A DNA stretch of 28,527 bases, from positions 1 to 28,527 of IMG/VR virus record IMGVR_UViG_3300043548_000364; one strand, given 5' to 3'. Below, one piece after another: positions 8,064-28,393 of the stretch. Position 1 is the stretch's first letter. Each line of letters opens with the position of its first letter. Origin of the DNA: a virus. A model generated the notes under the pieces. That model was not told the DNA's origin. It did no database searches and worked only from the letters and a program-made list of their open reading frames with translations. A program made the translations under genes and the position numbers.

Positions 8064-10706
8064 ATGAAGTTGTTTAGCGAAAAGGTAAATCCAACCTTGA
8101 CTAACTCTTCTCTTAACATCTTAACAGTTGAAAATTTTCACGAAATTTTCTTCGATGTCTATGAGATTGAGCTTAACAAGAAAAAGTATCCAGTTGAAAA
8201 GATTTCTTCTTATAAAGGGAATCCGGTTGTTGCTGTGCCTGTATCCATAGGAGAAAATACAGTGGAATATCCATTTGTATTGATGAAGGGCGCACCTGAC
8301 GTAGTTTTTAACGAAAACAACACGGAACATCCACTTGATCTTCAAGAAGAATCACAAAAGATCGAGGTTGATACATTCGAGTCTCCAGATTTGGAATATG
8401 AAAGCCGGATAACTGAAGAAGCAAAAACTCAAATTTTAAATCAGATTGAATTTGCTAAAAAGCAAGCGATTGAAAATGCTGAGAAGATAAAGCTTCAGAA
8501 AATAAAAGAAGCTGATCTTGAAATAAAAGCAAAAAACAAGCTATTACAAGAAACTTTAAAATCCGCAAAACAACAACTTGTAGAAGAATTCATCACAATC
8601 AGCGAATCCATCAAAAAGGAATTGCTGGGTGGTGTCGATTCAAGATATTCGGAAATTTCCGATACCGTGGATAACAAGATCAAGTATCTTGCTGATAATT
8701 TATCAGAGTCCATCAACAGCGATTTCGAAAATTCCGAAAAACGTTTCGAGAAAAACATAAAAGAATTTGTCAAGTCCCTCCACAACACAACTGTGTTGCC
8801 TGAACTTAAAAAACAACTTCATGAAATTTCTGAAAGTATCGTTGACAAAATATCAAACATCGAAGCCAACTTGGATGAAAAGTTGACAGAGAAAGTTGAT
8901 TTAAGTGTTATAGAAGAGATAAGCTCAGAACTGAGCGCTATCCGAGATAGCAATCTTGAACTTAACAATAATATAAACAAAGGCGTTAATAGAGCACTTT
9001 CAAGAATCGGTAATGTAAACACAAAAATCGACGAGGTTTCTGAAAACCTGATAAAGCAAGTTGATGAAAAAATATCAACAACAGCTTCTGAGATCACTGA
9101 ATATTACAGCGAGAAATTAAAAGAACTTGAAGATCAGACATTTAATCTGAATGAGACTTCTAGAAAATATGTAATCGATCTGGTTGAAGAATCTCGAAAC
9201 GCATTGGTTTCCGAAATCAGAAAAATTCAAAAAGAAGCACCTGTTGAACTTGTCATTGAATCATCTGGCAAGAAACAAGTTAAGAGTCTGGATGTCATTG
9301 AAAAAGACATCAATAAAAAAATCGCAGACAAGATAGCGGATGAAGTTGTAAAACTTAGAAAATACGTAGCTGTTTATTCAAGTGGTGGTGGTTCTGTTGC
9401 TCAACAATTCGCCAACGGTGGTGTGATGAATGGTAATCTAACTATCGTTGGTACTATCTCTGCTTCTCAATATCTAGGACTATCTGCTGGTGGAGGTGGT
9501 GGTGGAGTATCTGGTGATTATCTACCACTAAGCGGTGGAACGATAACTGGAAGCTTAAGTGTTTTTGATGGATTATCTGCCAATAGTTTAAATTTAACTA
9601 ATGGTATCAATATTTCCAATACCAGTGGTGGTATTACAATTGATGGTATCACAAATGCATTTGGTGCTCAGAATCAATTCAACTCTCAAATCAGGTCATC
9701 TGCTGGTGTAGCAATGGTCTTCCGTAATGTTGATGTTGTTTGTGAAAGAGAAACATTTTATGTAGGTGGATTAGATGGTTCTGGCACTGTTTATGGTAAT
9801 ATTAGCGGTGGTAGTGGCAGATTCGGAACACTTACAGTTAGTGGGCCGATATCCGCTGACAGCTCATCTGGTACAGCACACGAAATAGTCGGCAATATTA
9901 ATTTAACTGGAACTGGTAGTAATCAGTTTAATGCTACATATGCCAACACTATCACTTTAAATGGTAATTCTGGTATAAATTTAAACACAACTTCTGGAAG
10001 CATTAATCTCAGTAGTGGGTCTGGTGTAGATATAAGTTCAGCATCAGGTTTTATTAACTTGCCAGAGTTAATTAAAATAGGTGGAACGTCAGCAAGTTTC
10101 CCATCTATTAAAAGAAATGGATCAGGAATTGATATCAGAGATGCTGCTGATACAAGTTTTACTGATCTAAAAGCTGCTAATATAACAGCTTCTAGTACAT
10201 TATCGGCTAGTAGCGTCATAATAACAGGTGGAACGGCTGGGTTATCGGCTACTAGAGACTCAATTAGACAAAAATCTACAGTATCAACTGATCTTTCTGC
10301 TACAAGCACAACATTCATTTCTACAGGTTTGAGTGTTTCTCTAATCGGTGGCTTGGACTACTTAATACGAGGAATGTTTGATCTCGATTCGACTACTAAT
10401 TCATTTGGATCTAAATTACAACTAAGTATGTCACAGCCTGTTGATACTTTACAAGCAAGCGGGACTAATCTTGGAATACAGTATAATGCAGCGGCAGCAC
10501 CAGCATCTGTGAACTTATTAACCACAACTAGAAGTGATTTTTACATTAATGCTACGGCTAACAGCTACCGACGTGTCAATATTGATATTAGAGTTAGGCT
10601 TACAGCGACTGGTACTGTATCAGTAAGCTTCGGTCAACAAGCAACAGGCGGTACACCAGCTACAGTTCTTAGAGCAGGATCATTCTTAACAGCAGAATTA
10701 ATTTAA
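8064..10706 (+). CDS. Coiled-coil virion fibre protein
   Basis: The 880-residue product starts at the ATG behind the late box. An upstream in-frame ATG (7983) would overlap gp4 by 55 nt and is less likely. Residues 1-100 form a compact domain (KGNPVVAVPVSIGENTVEYP). Residues about 110-450 are long amphipathic helices rich in Glu, Lys and Ser without Pro, which look like a trimeric coiled coil. A glycine run (AGGGGGGVSGDYLPLSGGT) follows. The phrase 'YLPLSGGTITGSL' is common in phage tail-fibre shafts. The rest is low in charge, rich in Ser, Thr, Asn and Gly, with repeated 'G-x-I-N-L-(N/S)-T-xSG' beta repeats, ending in a beta-rich tip. It may be a head fibre, whisker or tail fibre. Its place between neck and prohead protease genes favours the head or neck. 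No enzymatic motif is seen. Confidence 0.7.
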   Translation: MKLFSEKVNPTLTNSSLNILTVENFHEIFFDVYEIELNKKKYPVEKISSYKGNPVVAVPVSIGENTVEYPFVLMKGAPDVVFNENNTEHPLDLQEESQKIEVDTFESPDLEYESRITEEAKTQILNQIEFAKKQAIENAEKIKLQKIKEADLEIKAKNKLLQETLKSAKQQLVEEFITISESIKKELLGGVDSRYSEISDTVDNKIKYLADNLSESINSDFENSEKRFEKNIKEFVKSLHNTTVLPELKKQLHEISESIVDKISNIEANLDEKLTEKVDLSVIEEISSELSAIRDSNLELNNNINKGVNRALSRIGNVNTKIDEVSENLIKQVDEKISTTASEITEYYSEKLKELEDQTFNLNETSRKYVIDLVEESRNALVSEIRKIQKEAPVELVIESSGKKQVKSLDVIEKDINKKIADKIADEVVKLRKYVAVYSSGGGSVAQQFANGGVMNGNLTIVGTISASQYLGLSAGGGGGGVSGDYLPLSGGTITGSLSVFDGLSANSLNLTNGINISNTSGGITIDGITNAFGAQNQFNSQIRSSAGVAMVFRNVDVVCERETFYVGGLDGSGTVYGNISGGSGRFGTLTVSGPISADSSSGTAHEIVGNINLTGTGSNQFNATYANTITLNGNSGINLNTTSGSINLSSGSGVDISSASGFINLPELIKIGGTSASFPSIKRNGSGIDIRDAADTSFTDLKAANITASSTLSASSVIITGGTAGLSATRDSIRQKSTVSTDLSATSTTFISTGLSVSLIGGLDYLIRGMFDLDSTTNSFGSKLQLSMSQPVDTLQASGTNLGIQYNAAAAPASVNLLTTTRSDFYINATANSYRRVNIDIRVRLTATGTVSVSFGQQATGGTPATVLRAGSFLTAELI

Positions 10707-25096: not shown

Positions 25097-25105
25097 CTTT
25101 ATATT

Positions 25106-25145
25106 GTGTTAGCGCCGACGTTGGAGGGTCGGGGTAGGCTGTAAA
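25106..25145 (+). pseudogene. 5' half of a tRNA, ends in anticodon loop (GTA)
   Basis: Acceptor strand GTGTTAG, D-arm CCGA...TCGG with GG in the loop, anticodon 5' strand GTAGG and loop CTGTAAA, as in tRNA-Tyr. The expected 3' anticodon strand CCTAC does not follow. The partner acceptor strand CTAACAC is at 25806-25812. Confidence 0.65.
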
Positions 25146-25162
25146 AAAGTTTACATTCTAAA

Positions 25163-25169
25163 CTAAATA
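25163..25169 (+). promoter_or_regulatory. Late-promoter-like box for HNH gene
   Basis: CTAAATA, 5 nt before the ATG at 25175, embedded in the tRNA array. Confidence 0.58.
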
Positions 25170-25174
25170 CTTGT

Positions 25175-25705
25175 ATGAATAAATGCAAACATTGCGATTC
25201 AGATATCCCTTATGTGAATAAAAATTCCAAAACTAAAAAGTTTTGCAATCAAAGTTGCGCAGCCAAATATAATAACTCTAAACGACCTCCTCTCTCGGAT
25301 GAGCATAGGAGGAAAATATCAGAAGGGTTAAAAAAAAGGTATGCAAGTAATAACCCACCTAAAGTCTTGTCTCCAGAAGAACAATCGAAGATTGTGGGCA
25401 AATCTACAAAACTTAAATATAAAGGATTGGAGGTAAGATCAATATGGGAATGTTCGTCTAGAACAATTGGAAAGATCATAAAACGAATGGATATTGGATG
25501 CTCTAGATGCGGATGGAAAGAAGCATCGTGTGACCTTCATCACATTAAAGGAAGAAAAATCGATGATCCTCATAATCATACTAACTTGATTTTATTATGT
25601 CCTAATTGCCATAGATTGGCACACAATAAAAAAATTGATCTATGTGGATATAAAACTATATATGATTTGTTTGGCGAGACATGGAAAGATTATTATTACG
25701 GGTGA
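25175..25705 (+). CDS. HNH homing endonuclease with zinc ribbon
   Basis: A 176-residue protein. The N-terminal zinc module is CKHC...FCNQSC (Cys4, 7, 23, 28). A NUMOD3-like helix pair follows (SDEHRRKISEGLKKRY). The C-terminal HNH domain has CSRCGW, DLHHIKGRKIDDPHNHTNL and LLCPNCHRLAHN, with structural cysteines and catalytic His residues. It probably cuts a tRNA or intergenic target in phages lacking the insert. Its TGA stop (25703-25705) lies inside the acceptor of the tRNA-Tyr gene. It sits between two halves of a broken tRNA, so it or its carrier probably caused the break. Confidence 0.85.
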   Translation: MNKCKHCDSDIPYVNKNSKTKKFCNQSCAAKYNNSKRPPLSDEHRRKISEGLKKRYASNNPPKVLSPEEQSKIVGKSTKLKYKGLEVRSIWECSSRTIGKIIKRMDIGCSRCGWKEASCDLHHIKGRKIDDPHNHTNLILLCPNCHRLAHNKKIDLCGYKTIYDLFGETWKDYYYG

Positions 25706-25781
25706 GTAAAACCAGCGGCTCTGGTAGCAGAACTGTAAATTCTGTCCCTTCGGGGGAGTGGATCGACACCACACTCACCCA
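25700..25781 (+). tRNA. tRNA-Tyr (anticodon GTA)
   Basis: A complete type II tRNA. Acceptor GGGTGAG/CTCACCC, D-arm ACCAG...CTGGT, anticodon arm CAGAA-CTGTAAA-TTCTG, long variable arm CCC-TTCG-GGG, T-arm GTGG-ATCGACA-CCAC. Its first 6 nt overlap the end of the HNH gene. Confidence 0.85.
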
Positions 25782-25813
25782 CCTTTTAGTCTGTTCGAAT
25801 CAGACCTAACACA
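25782..25813 (+). pseudogene. 3' half of a split tRNA
   Basis: T-arm GTCTG-TTCGAAT-CAGAC and acceptor CTAACAC plus A. No 5' strand is adjacent, but it pairs perfectly over 7 bp with GTGTTAG at 25106-25112. Confidence 0.65.
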
Positions 25814-25820
25814 CTTTTTA

Positions 25821-25892: not shown

Positions 25893-26348
25893 CCATATTC
25901 GGAAAAGATCCGAATACGCATCAGGGTTTCGGTCGCCTGATGTAAAAGAAAAGACCGTCCAATTTTTCGATTAGAGATGGAGTTAGCCATGAAAACGAGG
26001 ATATACTAGTACTTTTCTTCGTGAGTAATTTAAGGAGCCGCTAACGGCTAACTACACAACCCCTCGGTCAAAGGTTATAATCGAAGTTTTTTCAAACGGG
26101 CCGTACCCTTGTGGGCATCCAAAGCAGTGAAATGTGGAGGTTAGGTAATAAGTTGGACGATACCAACACGGCACACTTTTTCAAATCGTCATGTATGCAA
26201 ACAGGTAAAGCAGGCGGCGGTCCCGTTGATGAGACATAGCTTGGATGTAGAAAGAAAAGAAACCATGGAATGCTTTTCTGATGTAACATACTAAGGGTCC
26301 AATCTCAGCTGTAGGTTCGAATCCTACCATGGCAATTAATTTTATAAC
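25893..26348 (+). ncRNA. Hairpin-rich non-coding stretch between tRNA-Phe and tRNA-Arg
   Basis: About 450 nt without a plausible ORF. Clear elements are TATTCGGA-AAAGA-TCCGAATA (25896-25916) and CATCAGG...CCTGATG (25919-25944). Three long-range stems follow: GACCG 25953 with CGGTC 26064, TTCGATTA 25966 with TAATCGAA 26077 (crossing the former, a pseudoknot), and AGTTAGCC 25981 with GGCTAACT 26046. A tRNA-like piece at 26098-26173 (GGGCCGT/ACGGCAC, GTTGG/CCAAC) is next. A canonical T-arm plus acceptor strand without a 5' half (GTAGG-TTCGAAT-CCTAC-CATGGCA, 26311-26334) closes it. T4 also has stable non-tRNA RNAs (species C and D) in its tRNA cluster. Confidence 0.45.
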
Positions 26349-26420: not shown

Positions 26421-26427
26421 CTTTCAA

Positions 26428-26492
26428 TGCTCGCTGGAATCCTGCATATCGCGATCAGGATAGCCTGTGCTGTGAGAACCAGACGGTGAGCA
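26428..26492 (+). ncRNA. Small structured RNA candidate
   Basis: TGCTCGC and GTGAGCA close a 65-nt element containing a perfect stem ATCCTG...CAGGAT with an 11-nt loop and a weakly paired third part. It has tRNA-like size but no T-arm and no anticodon arm. Confidence 0.35.
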
Positions 26493-26501
26493 ACCAATTT
26501 C

Positions 26502-26572: not shown

Positions 26573-26744
26573 CTTTTTACCACGCCACATACGGCAATGC
26601 GGATTCGTATGTGAGCGTTTGTATTGAGTTTGTACTAGCCATACAAACAAAAGGATACAACGTATTCCGACGCACGATAGTAAAACTAGGTGGCTCTAGA
26701 TAATATCTATCCTCTGTGAATCTCGGTAGTGTGGTAAAGTTTTC
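26573..26744 (+). ncRNA. Hairpin pair between tRNA-Gly and tRNA-Pro
   Basis: CACATACG...CGTATGTG (26586-26613), extendable by CGC/GCG with one bulge, and GTTTGTA...TACAAAC (26617-26648), then a smaller repeat GATAG...CTATC. No ORF is supported on either strand. This is likely a stable RNA or processing spacer in the tRNA transcript. Confidence 0.4.
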
Positions 26745-26820
26745 TCTGGTATTAGCGAAGCTTGGTATCGCGCTGGCCTTGGGAGTCAGAGATCGTAGGT
26801 TCAAATCCTACATACCAGAC
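26745..26820 (+). tRNA. tRNA-Pro (anticodon TGG)
   Basis: Perfect acceptor TCTGGTA/TACCAGA, anticodon arm CTGGC-CTTGGGA-GTCAG, T-arm GTAGG-TTCAAAT-CCTAC. Confidence 0.9.
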
Positions 26821-26825
26821 CATTT

Positions 26826-26927
26826 AAACATGTAGTTCAGTGGTAGATCGCATCTTCTCTATGATGGTAAGCTACACCGCAAAAGAGAGAAGCTCTGAGG
26901 ACGCGGGTTCAATCCCCGCCATGTTTA
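26826..26927 (+). tRNA. tRNA-like gene with about 30 extra nt, identity unclear
   Basis: Perfect acceptor AAACATG/CATGTTT, T-arm GCGGG-TTCAATC-CCCGC and a D-arm GTTC-AGTGGTA-GATC (one mismatch) are standard. Between D- and T-arms there are about 60 nt instead of about 25. Candidate stems are CATC-TTCTCTAT-GATG, or CTTCTCT with AGAGAAG enclosing 25 nt. It may be an insertion, a long variable arm, or a small intron. Confidence 0.5.
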
Positions 26928-27037: not shown

Positions 27038-27070
27038 TGGCATATAGCGTAATGGTAGCGCAACTGACTA
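27038..27070 (+). pseudogene. Orphan tRNA 5' half fused to tRNA-Gln
   Basis: TGGCATA acceptor strand, canonical T8-A9, D-arm GCG-TAATGGTAG-CGC, anticodon strand ACTGA, then CTA. It stops inside the anticodon loop exactly where tRNA-Gln begins. No matching 3' strand (TATGCCA) was found in the array. Confidence 0.55.
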
Positions 27071-27145
27071 AGCAGCGTAGTGTAATGGTTTAGCACTAGT
27101 GGTTTTGATCCACTCGGAGTTCGGGTTCAATTCCCACCGCTGCCG
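27071..27145 (+). tRNA. tRNA-Gln (anticodon TTG)
   Basis: Acceptor GCAGCG/CGCTGC (first pair A-C mismatched), D-arm GTG...CAC, anticodon arm AGTGG-TTTTGAT-CCACT, T-loop TTCAATT with three stem pairs. Confidence 0.8.
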
Positions 27146-27165
27146 CTTATAAAATGTTAAAATTT

Positions 27166-27669
27166 TTATATTTTTTTATTCTTCTTACCAGCGAAAGAAG
27201 AAGTTTGACTGTGGCAATTTGGACAGAGAAAACATAGATTTTCTAATCTATTATCATTCGATATTCCATTTATATGTTCCAATTGTAATATCATTGGCTC
27301 ACCCATCCAACTTCCCAAATTGCCACATTTATGGCATTTGTAATCTAATAGCTTAAATTTCGTTAAGTATTTTTTTAGGTGAAATCTATTTCTTGTTGAA
27401 TTTTCAATTAACCAATTTTGCTCGAACTCCTCTTTTGATAATTTTCTGGTTAAATTAGAAGCTTCTACATTATTTAAAAAATGAGAAATATCAATGTTCA
27501 ATTCTGATATTCTTTGTTTAATAGTTCTGAAATTACCTCCTTTATTTTCTAATCCAAAATAATTCAAAGCTTCTTTTACTGATCTGCTCTTCTTAATAAG
27601 ATTAGAGAATTCTTCTTCTGGTAAAAGCCAAATTTTCGATCTTTTCTTTCTTGTTTTTATTGTACGCAT
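27166..27669 (-). CDS. HNH homing endonuclease
   Basis: A 167-residue protein read against the tRNA array. The C-terminal HNH domain is clear: YKCHKCGNLGSW, LQLEHINGISNDNRLENL and CFLCPNCHSQTSS, giving two CxxC pairs and the catalytic His. The N-terminal 100 residues form a helical DNA-binding part (SVKEALNYFGLENKGGNFRTIKQRI, resembling a helix-turn-helix). This HNH type is common in phages as a free-standing homing enzyme. A late box lies 5 nt before its ATG. It follows a tRNA-Gln fused to a broken tRNA half, the same company as the 25175 gene. Confidence 0.85.
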   Translation of the reverse strand: MRTIKTRKKRSKIWLLPEEEFSNLIKKSRSVKEALNYFGLENKGGNFRTIKQRISELNIDISHFLNNVEASNLTRKLSKEEFEQNWLIENSTRNRFHLKKYLTKFKLLDYKCHKCGNLGSWMGEPMILQLEHINGISNDNRLENLCFLCPNCHSQTSSFAGKKNKKI

Positions 27670-27733: not shown

Positions 27734-27833
27734 CTTTTCTACCTGATAAGAGCCTATAAGGAACGGTGATATAATGATCGTAGTGCTTCGGCCAGATTGT
27801 TTGAGTCGGGCGAATCCTGCACGGTAGAATGTT

Positions 27834-27840
27834 TTAAATA
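27834..27840 (+). promoter_or_regulatory. Late-promoter-like box
   Basis: TTAAATA with a 10-nt gap to the ATG at 27851. Confidence 0.45.
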
Positions 27841-27850
27841 AATAGAATTG

Positions 27851-28393
27851 ATGAAAAATGAAAACGCCATAATATGGGAACAGTTCTTATCTGAGTCTCC
27901 TTGGATAACTCAGCAAGTCCCCGATCAATTCAATATTGATATGTCAAATATCAGTGTAGAAAAAATAAAATCTAACCCAAAAATTGGAAGTTATAAAGAT
28001 TTTGAAATATACCAACGTGTAGATGAGTATGAAACAAGTCTGTATTTTCTTAAAGACGACACATTCGCTGCTTTTTATAAATACATAAAAACAGAACTTG
28101 GAAATATTCAAACTAAATTGATATGGAATGATAAAAAATACAAAGGATCGTTTCTAGACATCTTCGCGAATTATATAATTCCAAGATTTAAAATTGTCGA
28201 GAGTGATGTCATGATGACACCACAAGCTTTTGATATGTGGAAATCTTTAATGCTGTTGAAACCGGAATATAAATTCTATGTTAAACGAGACGATAAACTT
28301 CTAAAATTAGAATCTCCGTATGACGTTCATTTATATAAAGAACGCATGGGATTAGATGATAAAGAAAACACAACATTTGTAGTTCAAGAATAA
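27851..28393 (+). CDS. Uncharacterised phage protein, 180 aa
   Basis: The ATG at 27851 is used, and an in-frame TTG one codon earlier is possible. The protein has an N-terminal helix (NENAIIWEQFLSES), then YETSLYFLKDDTFAAFYKYI, a 'GSFLDIFANYIIPRFKIVESD' helix and MMTPQAFDMWKSLMLLKPEYKFYV. The pattern of strands, a helix, 'SD-xx-(M/Q)T-xx-(A/G)-xx-(F)W-xx-L' recalls GNAT-like phage proteins with a degenerate acetyl-CoA site, but no A-motif (Q/R-x-x-G-x-G/A) is seen. Function unknown. It lies between an HNH gene and tRNA-Lys. Confidence 0.55.
   Translation: MKNENAIIWEQFLSESPWITQQVPDQFNIDMSNISVEKIKSNPKIGSYKDFEIYQRVDEYETSLYFLKDDTFAAFYKYIKTELGNIQTKLIWNDKKYKGSFLDIFANYIIPRFKIVESDVMMTPQAFDMWKSLMLLKPEYKFYVKRDDKLLKLESPYDVHLYKERMGLDDKENTTFVVQE

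Follow-up and report, generated by a model that had tools for sequence, protein, structure and literature searches.

A phage tRNA-Tyr gene broken by an HNH endonuclease gene with a spare tRNA-Tyr: a probable mobile homing cassette

Background

The tRNA array of the virus record IMGVR_UViG_3300043548_000364 raises the question of how a tRNA-Tyr gene came to lie in two halves, with a homing endonuclease gene (HEG) of the HNH type and a second, complete tRNA-Tyr between them. The window, meaning the whole stretch of DNA analysed, is this 28.5-kb IMG/VR contig of a large tailed phage, whose portal, prohead protease and major head proteins match PHROG families. An earlier note on this DNA offered two answers: that a mobile cassette broke the tRNA-Tyr and brought its own replacement, or that the halves are joined in trans or by splicing. 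We consider it probable that the locus is a mobile homing cassette, whose nuclease attacks a tRNA gene and which provides a substitute tRNA.

Results

Relatives of the window (L009, L011 and others) came from scanning for the pattern of an element conserved in the tRNA array; the protein at 27854–28390, used as an anchor, yielded none. The 5′ fragment of the original tRNA-Tyr(GTA), covering its positions 1–37 (25106–25144, + strand; GTGTTAG...GGCTGTAA), is identical at 38 of 39 nucleotides to the intact tRNA-Tyr of L009 and L011 (E 2e-15), and the 3′ fragment (25786–25813, + strand; TTAGTCTGTTCGAATCAGACCTAACACA), which comprises the end of the variable arm, the T arm and the acceptor strand, lies in a stretch, 25786–25815, that matches the 3′ end of the same intact gene at 29 of 30 nucleotides (E 5e-10). 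In both of these HNH-free relatives the gene is uninterrupted at the same place, between tRNA-Arg and tRNA-Phe, and reads GTGTCAG...CTGTAACCCTATTGCCTTCGGGCTTAGTCTG...CTGACAC; a comparison with such relatives was the check that the earlier note had proposed, and the halves are contiguous there. Each half differs from the intact gene at one nucleotide, and the two differences together make a compensatory change of a C-G acceptor pair to T-A, the acceptor strands GTGTTAG/CTAACAC forming seven of seven pairs, as had been noticed before. These matches to one intact gene, together with the paired acceptor change, indicate that the halves were once a single tRNA, which evidently went on changing as a paired structure once the lineages had separated.

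Both halves described in the earlier note were thus borne out, while their limits had to be moved, since homology to the intact gene stops at 25144 on the 5′ side and resumes at 25786, which leaves out of the 3′ half the CCCAC that had been proposed to pair with the orphan GTAGG strand. The intact tRNA-Tyr refutes that pairing, its 3′ anticodon strand being CCTAT; CCCAC (25776–25780) is the acceptor strand of the inserted tRNA. By comparison with the intact gene, 17 nt of the original were lost at insertion (CCCTATTGCCTTCGGGC), which made up the 3′ anticodon strand and the greater part of the variable arm. This bears directly on whether splicing or joining in trans might still make a working tRNA of the halves, for which the perfect 7-bp acceptor pairing and the intact D and T arms would speak. 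With the whole 3′ anticodon strand gone, the halves cannot rebuild an anticodon stem and splicing could not restore the tRNA; unlike the parts of a split or trans-spliced tRNA, the two together do not make a complete molecule. A search of 25098–25820 with the Rfam model Intron_gpI returned nothing at E<=10, and hence no group I catalytic core, in line with the earlier note, although the same search detected a group I intron in the tRNA-Leu of L011 (60 bits). In addition, most sister cassettes described below wholly lack one half of the broken tRNA. We therefore regard joining of the halves as very improbable. The L011 intron (9470–9665) lies in the anticodon loop of tRNA-Leu(TAA), is missing from L009, and adjoins an opposite-strand HNH gene.

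The insert begins with a late-promoter-like box, TAAATA (25164–25169, + strand), 11 nt before the ATG of the HNH endonuclease gene (25175–25705, + strand), whose 176-aa product has a zinc-finger-like N terminus and an HNH domain (Pfam PF01844, 30.2 bits, above the cut-off). TAAATA stands at exactly −11 before many late and structural genes of the window and before most HEGs, including those of the Arg-ACG, Gly, Met, Gln and Arg-TCT cassettes; among the HEGs examined in the tRNA array the sole exception is that of the L009 Asn locus. The box resembles a late promoter of the T4 type, from which mRNAs would start with almost no leader. A homologue of the window nuclease (43–46% identity) adjoins tRNA-Tyr(GTA) in Lak phages; in L005 and L006 it comes directly after that tRNA. 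The HNH gene belongs to a known HEG family, lies outside any intron or intein, and has a target that is uninterrupted in HEG-free relatives, all of which is characteristic of free-standing phage homing endonuclease elements. Such elements sit between genes, away from their cut site, and this one lies inside a tRNA gene, so the cassette is a variant and not a typical member.

The complete tRNA-Tyr(GTA) at 25700–25781 (+ strand) overlaps the HNH stop by 6 nt, which agrees with the earlier description of a late-box HNH gene and an overlapping tRNA-Tyr between the halves. Its position between the halves indicates that it came with the HNH gene. It is atypical, with a 5-nt D loop and a 4-bp T stem, and its fold is conserved in a homologue in L003 (4306–4391) that stands alone, without a nuclease. 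Between the two, 25 of 25 pairs are kept and seven are compensatory, with both sides changed, against 3.5 in shuffles and 0 with slid partners. Given the kept pairs and compensatory changes, the spare is probably a working, if atypical, tRNA.

The same layout recurs in the phage group, where six loci (Tyr, Arg-ACG, Gly, Met, Arg-TCT and Gln) hold a broken tRNA, a nuclease gene of the HNH or GIY-YIG type and a complete tRNA, the tRNA at these loci being unbroken in other relatives. The anticodon of the new tRNA equals that of the broken one in six of six, the latter being taken from the fragment itself or from a relative whose gene at that place is unbroken. L003 has two such loci. Its tRNA-Arg(ACG) is broken in the T loop, and next comes an HNH gene that at its end runs into a new tRNA-Arg(ACG). 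Its tRNA-Gly, a case also present in L014, is broken in the anticodon arm, with a GIY-YIG gene after it that overlaps a new tRNA-Gly(TCC). The window has both genes intact. The replacement tRNA-Arg(ACG) of L003 (4222–4298) apparently has no normal D arm and a long variable region. In L011 and L012, a tRNA-Met that is intact in the window and L009 is broken after U33; a GIY-YIG gene and a new tRNA-Met(CAT) come next. In L011, L012, L016 and L018, a new tRNA-Arg(TCT) precedes an opposite-strand HNH gene, beyond which lies what is left of the old Arg(TCT), its 3′ fragment.

The sixth locus is a second cassette in the window itself (27038–27669), in which a tRNA-Gln is broken after U33. The 5′ fragment, positions 1–33 of the tRNA (27038–27069, + strand), scored 27.3 (background 99% quantile 13.2) in a position-and-pair model trained on 519 halves, a rigid motif and an nhmmer profile having proved too insensitive, and its nearest isotype is Gln. 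It is followed by a replacement tRNA-Gln(TTG) (27071–27146, + strand), which is 89.5% identical to a lone tRNA-Gln in L014, and by an HNH endonuclease gene on the − strand (27166–27669; PF01844, 23.8 bits) with TAAATA at −11.

Spare-type tRNAs standing alone without a nuclease were found for Met (L003), Gln (L014) and Tyr (L003). The lone tRNA-Met of L003 is identical to the L011 spare at 77 of 77 nucleotides, and in L011 an 11-nt repeat, TTTAATAGCGG, starts both the tRNA-Met fragment and the spare. A deletion between these repeats would yield exactly the lone tRNA-Met of L003, a possible route to a permanent swap.

Uninterrupted genes in HNH-free relatives and recurrence at other tRNA genes favour the first of the two earlier proposals, a mobile cassette that broke a tRNA-Tyr and brought its replacement. 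They also bear on an assembly artefact fusing two tRNA-Tyr loci, a concern because the Tyr insertion was seen once and in a metagenomic contig. The same architecture at other tRNAs in several metagenomes (L003/L014, L011/L012, L016/L018, and L196 and L201 from the survey below), and the synteny of the Tyr locus with relatives on both sides, make such a fusion scarcely credible.

The layout was then sought among approximately 165 further IMG/VR nuclease loci. For the GIY-YIG type, 160 loci with relatives of the two GIY-YIG nucleases reduced to 99 distinct HEGs, 61 of which have tRNAs in the locus. A tRNA started within −40 to +60 nt of the HEG stop codon in 31 of these 61 (14 expected), and the stop lay inside the tRNA in 17 (6.3 expected), eight of them at an identical offset with tRNA positions 8–10 forming the stop codon. 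Upstream tRNA 5′ halves above the 99% background quantile were present in 9 of 88 GIY-YIG HEG regions (~0.9 expected), six of the nine falling among the 27 HEGs with a tRNA at their 3′ end. Likely broken tRNAs beside these HEGs, strong and weaker cases together, include Trp (L064), Met (L115, L125, L073, L127, L131 and L108), Gly (L143 and L030), Gln (L037) and His (L028 and L036), with the break usually at U33 or a few nucleotides off; the fragments of L138 and L182 were too uncertain and were not counted. Fragment and complete tRNA agreed in isotype, judged by the nearest match of the fragment, in 11 of 17 cases (library shares predict 1.1) and, outside the phage group of the window, in ~5 of 11.

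For the HNH family of the Arg(TCT) cassettes, 66 distinct loci were found, 34 with a tRNA at the HEG end, and 17 of these 34 tRNAs were Arg(TCT) (P 9e-8, against a 12% share of Arg(TCT) among the tRNAs present). The GIY-YIG Met family adjoins tRNA-Met in 8 of 16 (P 4e-4). These nuclease families keep to one tRNA type. Orphan T arms lay upstream in 12 of the 66 HNH-family loci against a background of 1.7%, some belonging to intact tRNAs missed by ARAGORN. Two of the loci, L196 and L201, are nested like the window, though nuclease and spare come in the opposite order: an HNH gene and a complete Arg(TCT) tRNA lie between the two halves of a broken tRNA (7/7 acceptor pairs).

These data can be set against ordinary free-standing homing with co-conversion, in which a tRNA that happens to lie beside the nuclease gene in the donor is dragged along during repair of a cut tRNA gene, with no dedicated cassette. 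Precedent exists in SegB of T4/T6, whose cuts fall inside tRNA genes and which biases inheritance in favour of the tRNA region (PMC13096335, PMC2988022), and the HNH genes before tRNA-Ile in FelixO1 and before tRNA-Asn in L009 resemble plain insertions beside an unchanged tRNA. However, the nested cases (the window, L196 and L201) hold a complete spare and the 3′ part of the broken tRNA, as expected of a discrete inserted unit, and HEG families stay true to one isotype across diverged phages, with the reading frame overlapping the tRNA. Co-conversion is accordingly unlikely, though a more serious contender than joined halves or a misassembly.

Arrays of named phages (L019–L022 and L004) were also scanned, and the candidates were mostly intact tRNAs missed by ARAGORN, with no clear broken half beside a HEG. 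The named-phage relatives of the Met nuclease are located between protein genes. In FelixO1 (L019; 5031–5585) an HNH gene overlaps tRNA-Ile by 7 nt; comparison with Michonne first gave the impression of a tRNA swap, which was rejected, as closer HNH-free Felix-like phages have the same tRNA-Ile, leaving a plain insertion. The cultured Aeromonas phage Ah1 (L004; 2001–2692) contains an unannotated GIY-YIG open reading frame, 45% identical to the L003 nuclease, that overlaps tRNA-Gly(TCC) by 14 nt and could serve as a laboratory model.

Elsewhere in the array, a tRNA-like gene at 26826–26927, with a greatly enlarged (~43 nt) anticodon-arm or variable region, is near-identical across all relatives, occurring also in L003 (5849–5950), L009 and L011. 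Conserved non-tRNA elements between the window tRNAs (25893–25965, 26425–26500, 26577–26745 and 27740–27835) are common to several relatives, and none has an Rfam match at the gathering threshold.

Discussion

The cassette, seated in an older tRNA-Tyr, would combine a late promoter with an HNH homing endonuclease gene and, overlapping the stop of this gene with its 5′ end, a complete tRNA-Tyr. Its nuclease would cut the cognate tRNA gene of a co-infecting cassette-free phage, usually in the anticodon arm, and repair would be templated by the cassette-bearing genome, with the remaining tRNA half or halves and the flanks providing homology, so that the nuclease gene would be copied with the spare tRNA. 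The spare has diverged with its anticodon unchanged; its different sequence presumably resists cutting, and because it keeps the anticodon the phage would not lose that tRNA. The site resembles that of an anticodon-loop intron, with the damage mended by a second gene copy and not by splicing. The overlap between reading frame and tRNA would physically bind nuclease and spare, and later loss of the nuclease and the fragment would leave just the swapped tRNA.

Several observations weigh against this mechanism. The Tyr cassette is known from one metagenomic contig, and a pattern scan of IMG/VR and GTDB genomes found no close relative of its HNH protein. Neither ARAGORN nor Rfam recognises the atypical spare at 25700–25781. 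Nearest-neighbour comparison did not resolve the fragment isotype in L064, L115, L125, L028 and L036; kinship among some of the surveyed loci makes the counts overstate independence, and the tRNA shares, which rest on ARAGORN calls, are approximate. Finally, FelixO1 (Ile) and L009 (Asn) have a HEG in front of an intact tRNA without a broken fragment, and therefore HEG–tRNA overlap alone is no proof of replacement.

Known systems share parts of this arrangement. Group I introns with HEGs in tRNA anticodon loops occupy the same position and carry an endonuclease gene; the cassette differs in having no ribozyme, function being restored by a second copy. Integrative elements that attach at tRNA 3′ ends restore the tRNA they enter, a feature shared here, whereas the cassettes have a nuclease and not an integrase at the junction, enter in the anticodon arm and bring a whole divergent tRNA. 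SegB of T4/T6, a free-standing GIY-YIG HEG in a tRNA array, cuts inside tRNA genes and drives their inheritance and amplification (PMC13096335, PMC2988022), and microhomology has been reported between the 3′ end of segB and the 5′ end of tRNA-Tyr (PMC13096335). The present elements are likewise phage HEGs among tRNA genes that would cut such genes and drive their inheritance or amplification. Unlike SegB, which lies between intact tRNAs and for which neither a broken cognate tRNA nor a fused same-anticodon spare has been described, they are inserted inside the tRNA, often directly after U33, and involve several HEG families. Mobile open reading frames of fungal mitochondria carry a foreign gene 3′ end (Allomyces atp6; Glomus atp6, atp9, cox2 and nad3; PMC3630166), and in both systems an endonuclease insert brings a replacement piece while the displaced original stays downstream. 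In the fungi an in-frame C-terminal coding segment is replaced, whereas here a whole tRNA gene is supplied without fusion to the target, and the cassette thus works alike without belonging to that class. Literature searches of the open PMC library yielded no account of a broken tRNA that houses a HEG together with a spare tRNA of the same anticodon; most subscription papers lay outside this search, and novelty is therefore provisional.

If correct, this mechanism would give a selfish endonuclease a third way of residing in a needed gene, in which a spare replaces the broken gene, besides splicing or an intergenic position. It would also explain the abundance of homing endonucleases in phage tRNA arrays, the non-orthologous same-anticodon tRNAs found between close phage relatives, and the origin of phage tRNA fragments. 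The process could also disseminate tRNA alleles that withstand host defences, as these cleave particular tRNAs. Tentatively, and with more doubt than belief, we suggest that such cassettes may form a widespread class of phage elements, built on unrelated nuclease families, that homes into tRNA anticodon arms with a cut-resistant spare of the same anticodon, drives turnover of tRNA repertoires and spreads variants resisting host tRNA-cleaving defences such as Septu.
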